DNA of 45,725 nucleotides from Nitrosomonadaceae bacterium (GTDB lineage: Bacteria > Pseudomonadota > Gammaproteobacteria > Burkholderiales > Nitrosomonadaceae): assembly GCA_014237605.1 (NCBI GenBank), contig JAAZZR010000006.1, forward strand, positions 1-45,725, given 5' to 3'. Within the stretch, counting starts at the first letter, position 1; each line of letters opens with the position of its first letter. Shown here piece after piece: positions 3,612 through 11,103 of this stretch. A program made the position numbers and the translations under genes. The notes under the pieces were generated by a model. It had not been told where the DNA came from, did no database searches, and saw nothing but the letters and a program-made list of their open reading frames with translations.

Positions 3612-4922
3612 TCAATCTCTGCTGCTACCTCTACTCCGCTCAATATCAATTTCCGTAACCAAGCTACTATGATTCCCCCATGCATTTCTGATATAAGAGA
3701 CTACTAGGGCCATTTCTTCATCATGAAATATTTGCTGGAAAGGTGGCATCCCATATGGCCTTGGATTTCCAATTGTACTTGGAGGGAATCCTCCCTTCAT
3801 TACACTCAGTATTGTGTTAAGAGGTGAAGCCATAGTTACACTTCGGTTTCCTGCTAATGACGGGTAAACCCCAGGAATTCCTCTACCAGAAGACTGATGA
3901 CAATCTTCACAATATTTTGTATATATCTTACCCCCTTGTGCAAGCCGACTTCGTATATTTCTAGACAAAATCGGGAAGCTCTCAGCAGATGCAACATCCG
4001 AATTCTCTTTTCCAATAGATTTAAGATAGATAGCTATGGCACGTATATCCTCCGGCAATACAAACTGAAGACTTTGTCTGATTACTGTTGCCATATGGCC
4101 AGAAGCCACTGCGTCTTTTGTTATCCCAGATGTAAGAAGTTCAGTGATTTCATTTATCTCCAGCTCTCCACTACCTGCTTCTAATCTAGAGGTTAAGGAC
4201 GGCGCATACCAGCTCACACCTGTCATTTTCTTTCCAATAAATTTTTCTTCTTGGCTTGCTCCTAAAAAGTTGCGAGAAGAATGACAGGCGCTGCAATGCC
4301 CGAGCCCCTGTACTAAGTAAGCCCCACGATTCCATTCTTTACTCTTAGAGTTATCCGGATTAAAAATTCCCTCTTTGAAATACAGTTTTCTCCAGAAATA
4401 TAAAAGTGGTTTTAAGTTATATGGAAAGAAAATTTTACTAGAAGGGTTGTCTTTCGAAACTGGCTCAAGCGACATAAGATAATCAAATATTGCATCTGTA
4501 TCTTTTCTTGTTACTTTAGTATATTCAGTATAAGGAAAAGAGGGATAAAGCATCCGTCCATCTGGGGACTCGCCCCGATGAAGGGCCCCCCAGAAATCCT
4601 CTTTACTCCAATAACCAATACCTGTTTTCTTATCTGGCGTTATATTTGGTGTAATAAAAACTCCAAATGAGGTATACATTTTTTTCCCGCCAGCAAATGA
4701 AACCCCACCCTTAGCCGTATGGCACCCCATACAGTTTCCAACTCGGGAAAGATATTCACCAAGTGATCTATTCTGATCAGAAGCTGTGGGAATCAGTTGT
4801 ATAGATTCTGCATAGACCGGAATAGGCGCAAATATTAAAGCGAATAAAACTATTATGAGACTACCCACTGATACTATATGTTTTTGGATATAGATTTTAG
4901 ATTGCTGAATTAAGTATTTCAT
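3612..4922 (-). CDS. c-type cytochrome with three CXXCH motifs (ncgC-like)
   Basis: Heme motifs CMGCH, CSACH, CEDCH; N-terminal membrane/signal segment; ATGA overlap with the upstream cytochrome gene. Confidence 0.85.
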   Translation of the reverse strand: MKYLIQQSKIYIQKHIVSVGSLIIVLFALIFAPIPVYAESIQLIPTASDQNRSLGEYLSRVGNCMGCHTAKGGVSFAGGKKMYTSFGVFITPNITPDKKTGIGYWSKEDFWGALHRGESPDGRMLYPSFPYTEYTKVTRKDTDAIFDYLMSLEPVSKDNPSSKIFFPYNLKPLLYFWRKLYFKEGIFNPDNSKSKEWNRGAYLVQGLGHCSACHSSRNFLGASQEEKFIGKKMTGVSWYAPSLTSRLEAGSGELEINEITELLTSGITKDAVASGHMATVIRQSLQFVLPEDIRAIAIYLKSIGKENSDVASAESFPILSRNIRSRLAQGGKIYTKYCEDCHQSSGRGIPGVYPSLAGNRSVTMASPLNTILSVMKGGFPPSTIGNPRPYGMPPFQQIFHDEEMALVVSYIRNAWGNHSSLVTEIDIERSRGSSRD

Positions 4923-5650
4923 TCTGAATGCATATTTTCAGGGTCAATATTACTACAGCGATGAGAGAATTCTGATGCAAGCGCTCCGGGTAAACTTGGT
5001 TCGCCAGAAACAGTCTGAATAGCAAGCCACTTCGCAATAGCATTAATTTCTTCATCAGTTAGTCGTTTAGCAATTTCCGACATGCAATTGGAGTTCTGGC
5101 CTCGCATTAATCCTCCATTCCGCCAACTTCCAAATTGAGCAGAAATATAGGCATGAGACAAACCAAGCAAGCCCGGAACAAATGGCTTTATTCCCATTAA
5201 TGCCTCTCCATGGCATGATTTACATGCTGGAATATCCCTTCCTGGGTCTCCTAAATGAATGAGTGAATCAGCAAGCTTAATTTCTTCTGGACGAATATCA
5301 ATCTTTTCAGGTAATGGATATGGCAGCTGTAAAGAGGAAAAATAACGTGCTATTTCTAGGATGTACTCATCAGACATATTTTCCAGAAGAATGGCCATAG
5401 GTTGATAATATCGCCGTCCATCTCTGAAATTTCTCATCTGATTAAAAAGATACCCTGCAGGCTTCCCAGCTATTCTCGGGTAATATGCATCACGTCCTAC
5501 CCTGTCTTTATTACTATGACAAATAGTACATGCCTTAACCCGTTCTTCCATTGTATCGGGCACAGTAACCGATAAGCTTTCTGAGGCACTCACTAAATTT
5601 GAAATAAAGAAGGAAATAATTAGACAGCAATGTTTCATGCGTAATATCAA
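4919..5650 (-). CDS. diheme cytochrome c, c4-like (ncgB-like)
   Basis: CTICH and CKSCH motifs; signal peptide; between multicopper oxidase and triheme cytochrome genes. Confidence 0.85.
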   Translation of the reverse strand: MILRMKHCCLIISFFISNLVSASESLSVTVPDTMEERVKACTICHSNKDRVGRDAYYPRIAGKPAGYLFNQMRNFRDGRRYYQPMAILLENMSDEYILEIARYFSSLQLPYPLPEKIDIRPEEIKLADSLIHLGDPGRDIPACKSCHGEALMGIKPFVPGLLGLSHAYISAQFGSWRNGGLMRGQNSNCMSEIAKRLTDEEINAIAKWLAIQTVSGEPSLPGALASEFSHRCSNIDPENMHSE

Positions 5651-5719
5651 GAATGATCTTATGTATTAAATGTTAGATGTGATTATTTCTTGATATATTT
5701 TTTTAAACATACTTTATGC

Positions 5720-6709
5720 TCAGGGTAATACATGCCATCGCGCGGACATACCTGCCAGCATATGATCATTAACGTGACAATGTAAAAGCCAACTGCCTGG
5801 TGAACGGGGAGTCATATCAACTGAAACCATACTAGCAGGAAGAACTTCAATTACATCAGTTCGATGCCCTTGATTCAGTACTGTTTGTCCATGCCAGTGA
5901 ACCGTATGATTATCCTGTTCATTACCTAAGGCAGCTACGTGCCATCGCACACGCTCTCCTATTTTGGCCTCATATCCATTAAGGTTTCCAAAAATACGCC
6001 CATTAATCGCATGCTTTAACCCACTTTCTTCGCCATTCTCCTCATTAAATATCATAAATAATGAAATAAATTCATGATCTACATCACGCGGAAAAGGATT
6101 CGAATGGGAGACTTCCATCCCTTTTCTGGTAATAATAATAGCGCCAACTAGACCCAGGTTCATCTCTTCTTCCCCTAGAACATGAGAATGATAGAGCCAG
6201 ACAATTGATGAGGGATCATTGGGTCCTGGGCCAGAGTCTTCATCAACACCCCAAGTATATTTATAAGCCTCTCCGGGCAAAACATTGGCCCCTTTGTTAT
6301 GGCCATCAGCCCCTTCGTCATCTTTACTGTAAAGTACCCCATGAGGATGCATGGAAAGCGGCCGATCTGTTCTATTCAAAAAATGAACAACTATATTATC
6401 TCCCACTACACCCCGTATCTGTGGGCCCAATATTCCCATCCAATCTTCTTGGGGCAAAGGGACGGCATAGGTATTATCTGTGTAACCTATATAACGATAT
6501 TTCTTGTATTTTAAGGAGTCTCCCCAAACCCCAAGACCTTCATCGGGATGAATCTGATTCCGAGCAGAGGGGGCATAATCCCAAGATACTTTTTCTGCAG
6601 CAATCCAATACTCTCTTACTGATGCTTCTACCTGGAACGAGGATAAAATACCTAGTACCAGAAAGAATTGGATAATAGCCCTATTGCTATACCTAAAATT
6701 AATAATCAT
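5720..6709 (-). CDS. two-domain multicopper oxidase (ncgA-like)
   Basis: Copper motifs MHPHG, WLYHSHV, HTVHWHG and LLHCHVNDHMLAGM. The track start at 6739 is TTG; ATG at 6709 precedes a signal peptide. Confidence 0.85.
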   Translation of the reverse strand: MIINFRYSNRAIIQFFLVLGILSSFQVEASVREYWIAAEKVSWDYAPSARNQIHPDEGLGVWGDSLKYKKYRYIGYTDNTYAVPLPQEDWMGILGPQIRGVVGDNIVVHFLNRTDRPLSMHPHGVLYSKDDEGADGHNKGANVLPGEAYKYTWGVDEDSGPGPNDPSSIVWLYHSHVLGEEEMNLGLVGAIIITRKGMEVSHSNPFPRDVDHEFISLFMIFNEENGEESGLKHAINGRIFGNLNGYEAKIGERVRWHVAALGNEQDNHTVHWHGQTVLNQGHRTDVIEVLPASMVSVDMTPRSPGSWLLHCHVNDHMLAGMSARWHVLP

Positions 6710-6829
6710 CTCTAATTTTATTTGTACTAAATTTGCCAAATCTATTAGATTTTAGAATAGGGCAAGAAGCGATAAGACTAAAGCTTCTAATGATTTGGCC
6801 AGATAAATTTCTCTAGAAGTATATCAGAA

Positions 6830-8998
6830 TTAAAATTGCCCTCTAATTCCTATTAAAAGGGCGCGCCCAGGGCGTGGTGCAAAAGCTTTTAGATATGAAG
6901 TATGGAGACGCACATCCTCATTCATTAAATTTTTACCTTGTAGAAAAACTGTAAGCTTAGTAGACCGATTCATTTTCATAGTATAACCAGCAGTTAAATT
7001 TATCATCGTGTACCCACGAGTACTTGTTTCTACAGCTGCAGTTTTATTTTGTTTTAATACATGGGTAGTCATTAAATTAAGTTTCCAAGGACCAGCTCTA
7101 TGATTCCACTCTAGCCCGAACCTTTGTGGAGTAGTGCGGGGAACATTGCCATTATTATGATTTAGTCTTGCCCGTACATAATCTGTAAACAAACGCAAGT
7201 CTAGTACCTTAGGCTTAAAAATAAATTTTATCTATGCTTCTACGCCATAAAAAGTTGCACCTCTCTGAGTAACATTCTGAACTAGAAGCTCTCCGTCTGG
7301 GTCTGCATCCCCTTCTTCATCAACACGGTCTGCAATACCATTACTATCAGCATCCGCGCTAGCCCAATATATATAGTTCTCATAATAGTTATAAAAGAAA
7401 TTGGTCTGCCATCTTATCCCACCCGAGGTTTTGCTCAATGTAAAATCAAGATTATTTGAGGTTTCTTTTTTAAGTCTCTGGCTGCCAGTTTGGAATGTTT
7501 CTGTGGCATGGTGCGCGCCACTTGTATAGAGCTCTTCTGTTGCCGGTGCACGCTGCCCTCTCGTTCCAGTGAGTCCGATACTATATCCATCTACGGGTTT
7601 CCATTTCCCACCAATCGATACGCCATAAAGGTCATACTTACGAGAATCGTTAGCAGACTTTGGATCTACTGATGCATGCTCATAACGCCCGCCTACATCA
7701 AGATGAAAATTATTCCAATGTCGTTCTTCAATCAGAAAAACACTGGTATTTCGTGAGTTTGTTTTTGGTACGATCGTTTCTTCTCCTATTGCAGAAAAAT
7801 CGCGATCTTTAACCTGGACACCAATTACGCCTTTGAAACCTTTTACTGGTCTATGTGTAAGCTCGGCTCGACTATCGATTCCCTGATTTCTAAAAACCGA
7901 TCCCAACTCGCCTGAACCTTCAAACTCTGAATGCCGGTAATCACTATACCCCATCTTTACTTTCAATTTTTCAAAGCCAATGACAGGACGGTTTAATTCT
8001 CCAGCTATATCATAACGATTCTTTACAAGATCAATCCTCGGAGCCTCTTCACTGGGAACACCATATTTACTTTCCGATCGTGAAAGTGACCCCCCTATAT
8101 ATCCTCTTGAGCCTAAAATTGAGCCGCCAATGGACCCTCCTCCCGAATTTGTACCGCTATTCTTGACCTTACCTCTTTTGCCGTGGTCTGGTTCATTTCT
8201 ATTTTGATTTCCAGGAATACCGTAATCATTAGTTTTTCTTCTGAAACCACTGGCGTTTAACGATATATGATTACCAATACTTCCACTTGCATTAAAAGAT
8301 CCTGACTTCTCTTGTGTAGATGTATTTCCACGCGCTCCAAAAGTACCAGTTAATTTCTTAAATATCCTCCTAGGAATCTTGTCAGTAACTACATTAACTA
8401 CCCCGCCTATTGCACCCCCTCCATACATGAGTGTTGATGGGCCGCGTAGGATCTCTATTTTTGATGCATTGATTGATTCAACTGTGACAGCATGATCTGT
8501 GCTGAGAGACGAAACATCCAGCGTATCTATACCATTTTCCAAAATCATAATTCGTGGGCCATCCAGCCCCCGAATAAGCGGTCTACCCGCTCCAGGCCCA
8601 AAAGAACTAGAAGCAACACCGAGCTCTCCTGATAGAGTATCTCCCAGACTTGTTTCTTGTTTGTATCGTAATCGATCACCTTCTAATATAGAAACTGGCT
8701 GCGCCATATCTAATTCAGAATGATTCCCAAATGGGCTGGCCATTATTGTAACTTCTGGTAACGCTGTTTCTTTATGATTATCATCAGCTTGTACATTTTG
8801 AATACTTAGTTTCATACAAACTAAAACTAAAACTAAAACAGCTAATTTTTTTAATACTGCCAAAACAGGCTCTGCTTTATACCAAACAAAATATCTGGTT
8901 CTCATAAGCAAAAAATAATGAATTAATAGCAACATAGTTGCATTAATTAAGGAAACACCTTTTAGGCTTTGTAACACTATAACCCCCACATCAAACAA
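6830..8998 (-). pseudogene. znuD: ZnuD-like TonB-dependent receptor interrupted by an in-frame TAG
   Basis: The 588-aa N-terminal part (plug domain, ...ILRGPSTLMYGGGAIGGVVNVVTDKIPR...) ends ..GATFYGVEA* at 7232-7234. The same frame continues IKFIFKPKVLDLRLFTDYVRARLNHNN...GRALLIGIRGQF to 6830. Confidence 0.8.
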
Positions 8999-9438: not shown

Positions 9439-9861
9439 TTATGCGCACTCGGCACACAGCCCCTTTACAGTCAACTCTACTTCATGAGACTGGTAGCCTG
9501 GTGGCAAAGGTGAGCTATATTTTGCCTTTACATCGCTTAGACATGTAACTGCTGCACAAATCGAACATTTAAAATGAGCGTGCTGGTGTAAGCCCGTATA
9601 AATATTAGTACGAAAGCGCCATTTCCGGTCACCACTTATTACCTTATGAGCCAGATCTTTTTTATTTAACCACTCAAGGATACGGTAAAGTGTGACTCGA
9701 TTAATCGCACTGTCATCACCTAATTTTTCTTCAATTTCATGGTGTGAGATAGCCTTCTTCTCAGCAAGCAAAATACCAAGAACAAGAACCCTTCCACGAG
9801 TTATTCGATCACCGGTATGGCGGATCATTTCTTCTGCCTGTTCATAGAAATTAGTTAGCAT
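9439..9861 (-). CDS. zur: Fur-family transcriptional regulator, probably Zur
   Basis: Fur winged helix (INRVTLYRILEWLNKKDLAHKV), HQHAHFKCSICAAVTCL and C-terminal CAECA metal ligands; next to a ZnuD-like receptor. Confidence 0.8.
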   Translation of the reverse strand: MLTNFYEQAEEMIRHTGDRITRGRVLVLGILLAEKKAISHHEIEEKLGDDSAINRVTLYRILEWLNKKDLAHKVISGDRKWRFRTNIYTGLHQHAHFKCSICAAVTCLSDVKAKYSSPLPPGYQSHEVELTVKGLCAECA

Positions 9862-9871
9862 TTTATTTTGC

Positions 9872-9884
9872 GCAACTTAGTTGC
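9872..9884. promoter_or_regulatory. Candidate operator upstream of the Fur-family gene (GCAACTTAGTTGC)
   Basis: Perfect 5-3-5 inverted repeat 10 bp upstream of the zur start. Confidence 0.4.
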
Positions 9885-10278
9885 ATTTAATATAAACGTT
9901 TAACCTAAAAATTGCAAGCCACTTGTCTCTAAGAAAAAAGGAAACTCCGAAAGATGCTGAACCAGCAGAAAATAGCGTCACATTATAAATATAATAAAGA
10001 AGAGAAGTACTATGTACTGATATTATCAAGACAAATGAAGCAAGCTAGATCGATTACTACTATTTTACAAAGGTAGTCTCAAGAACGCACCGAAAAATTC
10101 CTTTACCATTTTCTTCGATGCATACATGGCCACTGATAATTAGAAAGAATAGTTATCAACACTATTATAAGGATAATTATCTCTCAATAACTTACTGAAA
10201 ACAGAGTAAGATTTATTTGAGCATGGTTAAATATAGTAAACTTAATTTTATTCTTCAGAAGATTTACAGCTGGTTCTC

Positions 10279-10313
10279 TTGTCCACAGTAACTGTGGATA
10301 AGTTTGTGGATAA
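10279..10313. promoter_or_regulatory. DnaA-box cluster
   Basis: TTGTCCACA (10279-10287), TGTGGATAA (10293-10301) and TGTGGATAA (10305-10313), then AT-rich sequence; a near-match TTATCAACA lies at 10153-10161. Confidence 0.6.
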
Positions 10314-10821
10314 GTTGCATTTAAAGTCGTTAAGCTACCATTTAATAAGGATATTTATTAATTAGATTAAATTTTAAACTAAGAATTTATTGTTTAAAAA
10401 CAATAGGTTATTTTAACAATCAAGACCCATGCGGGTTTGCGCCATATGTTTATGCAATAAAGGCATTAAATGTGGACTACTACGTAGAATCTCTATCAAG
10501 CTGTACCTCTATATGACCCTATATAGACCCATTGATCCAATTTGTCGTCTGACACACAGGCATTTTTTGACCCATCGATATTTATTCTCGATTGACTGAC
10601 AGGAAATATCTGACTCTTTGGTGTAATGACAAGAAAGCCAACCTTAAGCGGGTAGGTAAAAAGGCAAAGACTGTCAATAATAATTAATATATGAAGAGAA
10701 GGTAGTAATTAAACTTAGAAATTAAATTGTTAACGGACAACTTAGACTAAAAAATTAAATATGATGAATCGGTAGAACAACCCTTAATCATTATTCATTA
10801 CTAACAAATTTACTTAAAAAT

Positions 10822-11103
10822 CTAATTTTTATCAGCAGCAGCAGCAGCAGCAGCTCCCATCAGCTGCGCTTTCGATTTTCTACCAGGGGCTGCAGGAGGA
10901 ATATACCCAGCTATCCGGCAACTAGTTCCTTCAATTGTCTTCCCCTTCTCATGCCTAATTAAATGGCATGTCATTATCTCTCCCTTCGTAGCAAGCTCTT
11001 CCAAATGAAGACGAACATTAGCGAGAGAAATGCCTGTAGCGGTAGCAATCTCCATATCAAGCTTTTCACCATTCTTTTTCAGGTACTGTAGAATTTCATC
11101 CAT
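10822..11103 (-). CDS. Small winged-helix/ArsR-like DNA-binding protein with C-terminal poly-alanine
   Basis: MDEILQYLKKNGEKLDMEIATATGISLANVRLHLEELATKGEI fits a winged-helix fold; C-terminal A7 encoded by GCT repeats. Confidence 0.65.
   Translation of the reverse strand: MDEILQYLKKNGEKLDMEIATATGISLANVRLHLEELATKGEIMTCHLIRHEKGKTIEGTSCRIAGYIPPAAPGRKSKAQLMGAAAAAAADKN
10833..10853. repeat. (CAG)7 trinucleotide microsatellite
   Basis: Seven uninterrupted CAG units read directly, encoding seven GCT alanine codons on the minus strand. Confidence 0.95.

Follow-up and report, generated by a model that had tools for sequence, protein, structure and literature searches.

The locus described here raises the question of what a cluster of DnaA boxes does when it adjoins AT-rich DNA but no dnaA gene lies near it. 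The window, which is the whole stretch of 45,725 nucleotides that was analysed, corresponds to contig C95 in the draft genome (1.27 Mb, 128 contigs) of a Nitrosomonadaceae bacterium. A sequence-only reading had placed such a cluster in a gene-free gap and proposed either a chromosomal origin separated from dnaA or a DnaA titration or reactivation site resembling datA or DARS. Its description of the region is borne out. The ORF list of the window shows neither dnaA nor, at 9862-10821, any ORF reaching 80 aa; three DnaA boxes lie within 35 bp (10279-10313), the last two 12 bp apart from start to start; and the GC content at 10300-10399, to the right of the boxes, is 20% versus ~39% for the window. 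In E. coli, where DARS has been worked out, Hda makes ADP-DnaA and DARS restores ATP-DnaA. The analysis indicates that 10279-10313, together with the right arm to ~10498, is very probably a DnaA-reactivating sequence (DARS), and that the genome has two such sites, the other lying at C51:14218-14423.

What exceeds chance in the window is the three-box arrangement, not the number of single boxes. Single DnaA boxes occur at chance level (5 found, 5.3 expected), whereas the three-box arrangement, with up to two mismatches allowed, has two occurrences in the genome and a reversed control pattern has none. On the plus strand the core reads TTGTCCACA, 5 bp, TGTGGATAA, 3 bp, TGTGGATAA. The position of box I reads TTNTCCACA, and that of box II TGTGGATAA, in all 21 of the 21 aligned family copies. 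A further box, TTATCAACA, had been reported to the left of the cluster and is indeed present at 10153-10161, but it is not conserved, even the nearest relative having TTATCAGCA instead. This lack of conservation and a single mismatch to TTWTNCACA exclude it from the box count. A noncoding-RNA reading of the gap was dropped, as Rfam returned no family match for 9862-10821 up to E = 1. The features of the region are collected in the table.

Table. Features of the DnaA-box locus and its immediate neighbours in the window.
Feature	Coordinates	Strand	Basis or remark
DnaA box I, TTGTCCACA	10279..10287	+	8/9 to TTWTNCACA
DnaA box II, TTATCCACA	10293..10301	-	Perfect; head to head with box I, 5-bp spacer
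DnaA box III, TTATCCACA	10305..10313	-	Perfect; oriented like box II, 3 bp from it
Conserved right arm, putative regulatory region	10314..10498, right end approximate	.	Alignment and A/B block comparison
Weak candidate IHF site, TAACCTATTGTTT	10398..10410	-	1 mismatch to TAANNNNTTGATW
Weak fourth DnaA-box-like site, TGTGGACTA	10471..10479	-	Alignment; TGTGGATTA in most relatives
Fur-family regulator gene, left neighbour	9439..9861	-	Pfam FUR 2.4e-9; context only
Small winged-helix-type regulator, right neighbour	10822..11103	-	FaeA-like 1.5e-4, SufR-like 2.3e-4; context only

Several genes around the gap have features of their own. The small regulator on the right ends in a C-terminal alanine run coded by a GCA/CAG-type repeat. 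Next to the Fur-family gene, the reading frame of a ZnuD-like TonB receptor (6830-8998, minus strand) appears to be broken into ORFs 7232-8998 and 6830-7198, which may reflect a frameshift or faulty assembly. At 3612-6739 (minus strand), a gene for a multicopper oxidase stands with two for cytochromes c, a set that recalls ncgABC of Nitrosomonas, and no nirK was seen in the window.

The geometry of the core is that of the E. coli DARS. On the plus strand, the DARS1 core reads TTATCCACT-5-TGTGGATAA-3-TGTGTATTA and the DARS2 core TTATTCACC-5-TGTGGATAG-3-TGTGAAGAA, and the window core matches both in box number, box directions and both spacings. The assignment of box III in DARS1 depends on the spacing that DARS1 and DARS2 share. 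The two E. coli sites are described as having equal box spacing and a box I that opposes boxes II and III, an arrangement that lets ADP-DnaA meet head to head; the same source gives the head-to-head boxes I and II as the hallmark of DARS (PMC5742627). In a published deletion of the DARS2 region with DnaA boxes I-III, the mapped homology arms enclose precisely the DARS2 core (PMC4585315). Both arms are on the same strand as printed, which is odd for a primer pair; the mapped place is unaffected. An opposite-strand reading of the E. coli cores, with a 1-bp spacer between boxes II and III, was rejected: DARS1 fits the other strand with 3 rather than 7 mismatches, and in DARS2 the arms of the deletion enclose a 5/3 core at another place in the gap.

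The right arm of ~185 bp consists of an AT-rich tract to ~10420 followed by a CATGCGGGTTTG motif. Longer copies of the element align over core and arm and share fixed motifs (TTAAG..., CATAA, AAAACA-N4-GTTA, TGCGGGTTTG and TGTGGATTA). In a block comparison of the site in the window (site A) with the second site of the genome (site B), identity is 89% in the core and 80% and 77% across the arm; similarity falls to shuffle level left of the core and beyond +240, so that the flanks are unrelated. The weak IHF-like site, ~120 bp from the boxes, keeps the same offset in both sites and in some relatives. It counts for little because it is absent from some copies and because AT-rich DNA often yields such matches. 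An unsystematic comparison brought out no likeness between this arm and those of DARS1 and DARS2.

The IHF-like site at an equal offset in sites A and B, together with the high affinity of the boxes, would also suit a datA-like DnaA titration or inactivation site, which stores DnaA or promotes ATP hydrolysis. This alternative, raised by the sequence-only reading, is disfavoured because head-to-head boxes I and II are the DARS hallmark given in PMC5742627. The opposition of box I to boxes II and III points the same way, and the exact DARS spacing is kept throughout the class, which simple titration would not need. A datA-like function is therefore very unlikely.

The DARS reading is also consistent with how the element recurs. 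Matches to 10274-10493 were found in 31 of the 61 genomes searched, the source genome included, some of them limited to the 36-bp core. Site B is 83% identical, and both sites are also present in the relative G005 with matching neighbours. Site A lies between the Fur-family gene and the small regulator, and site B between adk and one ORF without assignment; in other relatives, core and arm adjoin an ABC-F gene in one genus and exbB and xseA in two genera. Since the neighbours change while core and arm persist, the unit is the core plus arm and not the promoter of one gene. A mobile repeat was rejected: the genome has only two copies, both have counterparts beside matching genes in G005, and the alignment shows no terminal repeats.

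Control of adjacent genes by DnaA, with the element acting as a promoter or switch (for instance of xseA in sister genera), would explain why, in many relatives, the arm runs up to the start codon of xseA, with the conserved TGTGGATTA just upstream. It is nevertheless hardly probable, as the same core and arm stand beside Fur-family, adk, ABC-F or xseA genes according to genus, and xseA of this genome is on another contig that lacks the core. A member of the same genus (G003; L287, contig C17) carries a decayed DARS-like core before xseA, with 5 mismatches where shuffled sequences have at least 8. This decayed core, and the lack of one at xseA here, suggest that the core-plus-arm module moved within the genus.

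The spacing of a DARS core is conserved well beyond these relatives. Surveys of 250 genomes of the order and 203 of the class used exact box matches with free spacers (2-9 and 0-6 bp), and hits were counted by hand. Matches occur in 71 of the order genomes, where 91 of 93 have 5/3 spacing, and in 93 of the class genomes, where all 126 do. The reversed control pattern has no match in either set. More than half of the sampled class genomes lack a match, because exact-match surveys miss degenerate cores. A two-box search with free spacing gives mostly 5-bp spacers among the matches listed, and the core carriers among the matches listed include Acinetobacter, Pseudomonas, Methylomonas, Nitrosospira and Burkholderia. 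The two remaining order matches have 5/1 spacing (a 1-bp spacer between boxes II and III) and both lie on contig C7 of G050, at positions 101 and 14030.

Synteny links these cores to a known DARS locus. In Rodentibacter the core lies upstream of uvrB, the DARS1 locus, and is oriented as E. coli DARS1; the uvrB gaps of both organisms carry GGTTAGATAAA at a like distance. The 5 and 3 bp spacers are common to the window, site B, DARS1, DARS2 and Rodentibacter. Beta lineages have two recurring core loci, exbB-xseA and priA-hemE, and priA adjoins cores in several gamma genomes too. Exact core geometry, class-wide conservation, the pairs of sites and DARS1-locus synteny together lend strong support to the proposal of a DARS-like site.

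Two further arrangements were seen at the priA-hemE locus. Duganella, Collimonas, Rugamonas and Noviherbaspirillum genomes (L150, L156, L191, L199, L216, L218, L139) carry DARS-like cores in pairs, ~410-465 bp from one another; wherever priA and hemE are both visible, the pair lies between them. A record labelled Desulfobulbus (L212) shows a beta-like priA-core-hemE arrangement and is probably a mis-binned contig.

The site is noncoding and lies away from oriC, as judged from the separate dnaA locus and from the position between oriC and terminus in complete relatives. In these relatives, the main sites are far from dnaA, mostly mid to late on the replichore. For xseA-linked copies the distance from dnaA is ~0.5-0.75 of half the chromosome in the complete or near-complete genomes G015, G033, G035 and G027, and larger in G031 and G016, with rounded genome sizes used where exact sizes were not shown. 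Further short cores lie nearer dnaA in G015 and G019. On the same measure, E. coli DARS1 stands at roughly 0.66 and DARS2 at roughly 0.41 from oriC.

The dnaA gene of this genome lies on contig C37 in the canonical order dnaN-dnaA-rpmH-rnpA; the dnaA-rpmH interval holds a pair of perfect, inverted DnaA boxes spaced 12 bp apart. GC skew changes across dnaA from -0.118 to +0.159 here and from -0.127 to +0.148 in G005. The near-complete relatives G031 and G016 also switch at dnaA and show no switch at the element; G015 was left out of this comparison as its skew is too weak to judge. A skew minimum near 10.3 kb, suggested as a sign of an origin, does not appear, as the cumulative skew has no lasting minimum there and falls on to ~34 kb. 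A chromosomal or secondary origin, in which DnaA on the boxes would melt the adjoining 20% GC tract, is exceedingly improbable and the proposal is rejected, since the skew switches at a dnaA locus with boxes of its own and an element expected once per chromosome occurs twice. Finding DnaA boxes clustered next to AT-rich DNA does not in itself establish an origin.

The proteins of a DnaA cycle are encoded in this genome. Besides DnaA, it has an Hda that, despite being truncated at the end of a contig, still exceeds the TIGR03420 cut-off, homologues of both IHF alpha and IHF beta, and a Fis homologue whose top match is Fis but which falls below curated cut-offs. If the site operates as a DARS does in E. 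coli, ADP-DnaA, made after initiation by Hda (RIDA), would bind the core, and the two DnaA molecules facing each other on boxes I and II would release ADP. Apo-DnaA would then rebind ATP, and the resulting ATP-DnaA would permit another round of initiation at the oriC beside dnaA. The arm would presumably bind bending or stimulating factors that set the timing, for which the encoded IHF and Fis homologues are candidates. We infer both ADP release at this site and the role of the arm by analogy.

DARS is already known, and beta species are already mentioned in a review, making this site a further member of a described class. In the parts of the literature consulted, detailed treatment of DARS conservation stays within gamma species resembling E. 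coli, beta species being named in a single sentence of a review; a search covering mainly open-access papers found no survey of DARS beyond E. coli-like species. The strict 35-bp geometry, matched exactly in a little under half of the sampled class genomes, offers a simple DARS detector. Its class-wide occurrence suggests DNA-mediated recharging of DnaA as a general feature of the class, slow-growing nitrifiers included. A broader scenario, plausible enough to state but still tentative, is that DARS is an ancestral, class-wide system of Gammaproteobacteria sensu GTDB with exbB-xseA and priA-hemE as its old beta loci. In this small-genome nitrifier genus, the core-plus-arm module may have relocated as a whole, the site linked to xseA decaying meanwhile, and the arm may respond to different factors or sites from those known for the arm of E. 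coli DARS2.

Among known systems, E. coli datA resembles the window site in being a DnaA-box cluster outside oriC. It differs, as compared by description from the parts of the literature consulted, in having boxes around a single IHF site and a role in ATP-DnaA hydrolysis, with no head-to-head 5/3 core described there. Since the genes beside the element change from genus to genus, it cannot be assigned as an orthologue of DARS1 or of DARS2 in particular. E. coli DARS2, between rppH and mutH with its core at 2969135, has the same core geometry as the window; its ~400 bp arm carries proven IHF and Fis sites, whereas the IHF site of the window arm is only a weak candidate. E. coli DARS1, upstream of uvrB (NC_000913.3 813107), is intergenic with no dnaA nearby, like the window core. 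Its neighbours are different and its arm is ~50 bp, and the boxes in the window are closer to the consensus than those of DARS1.
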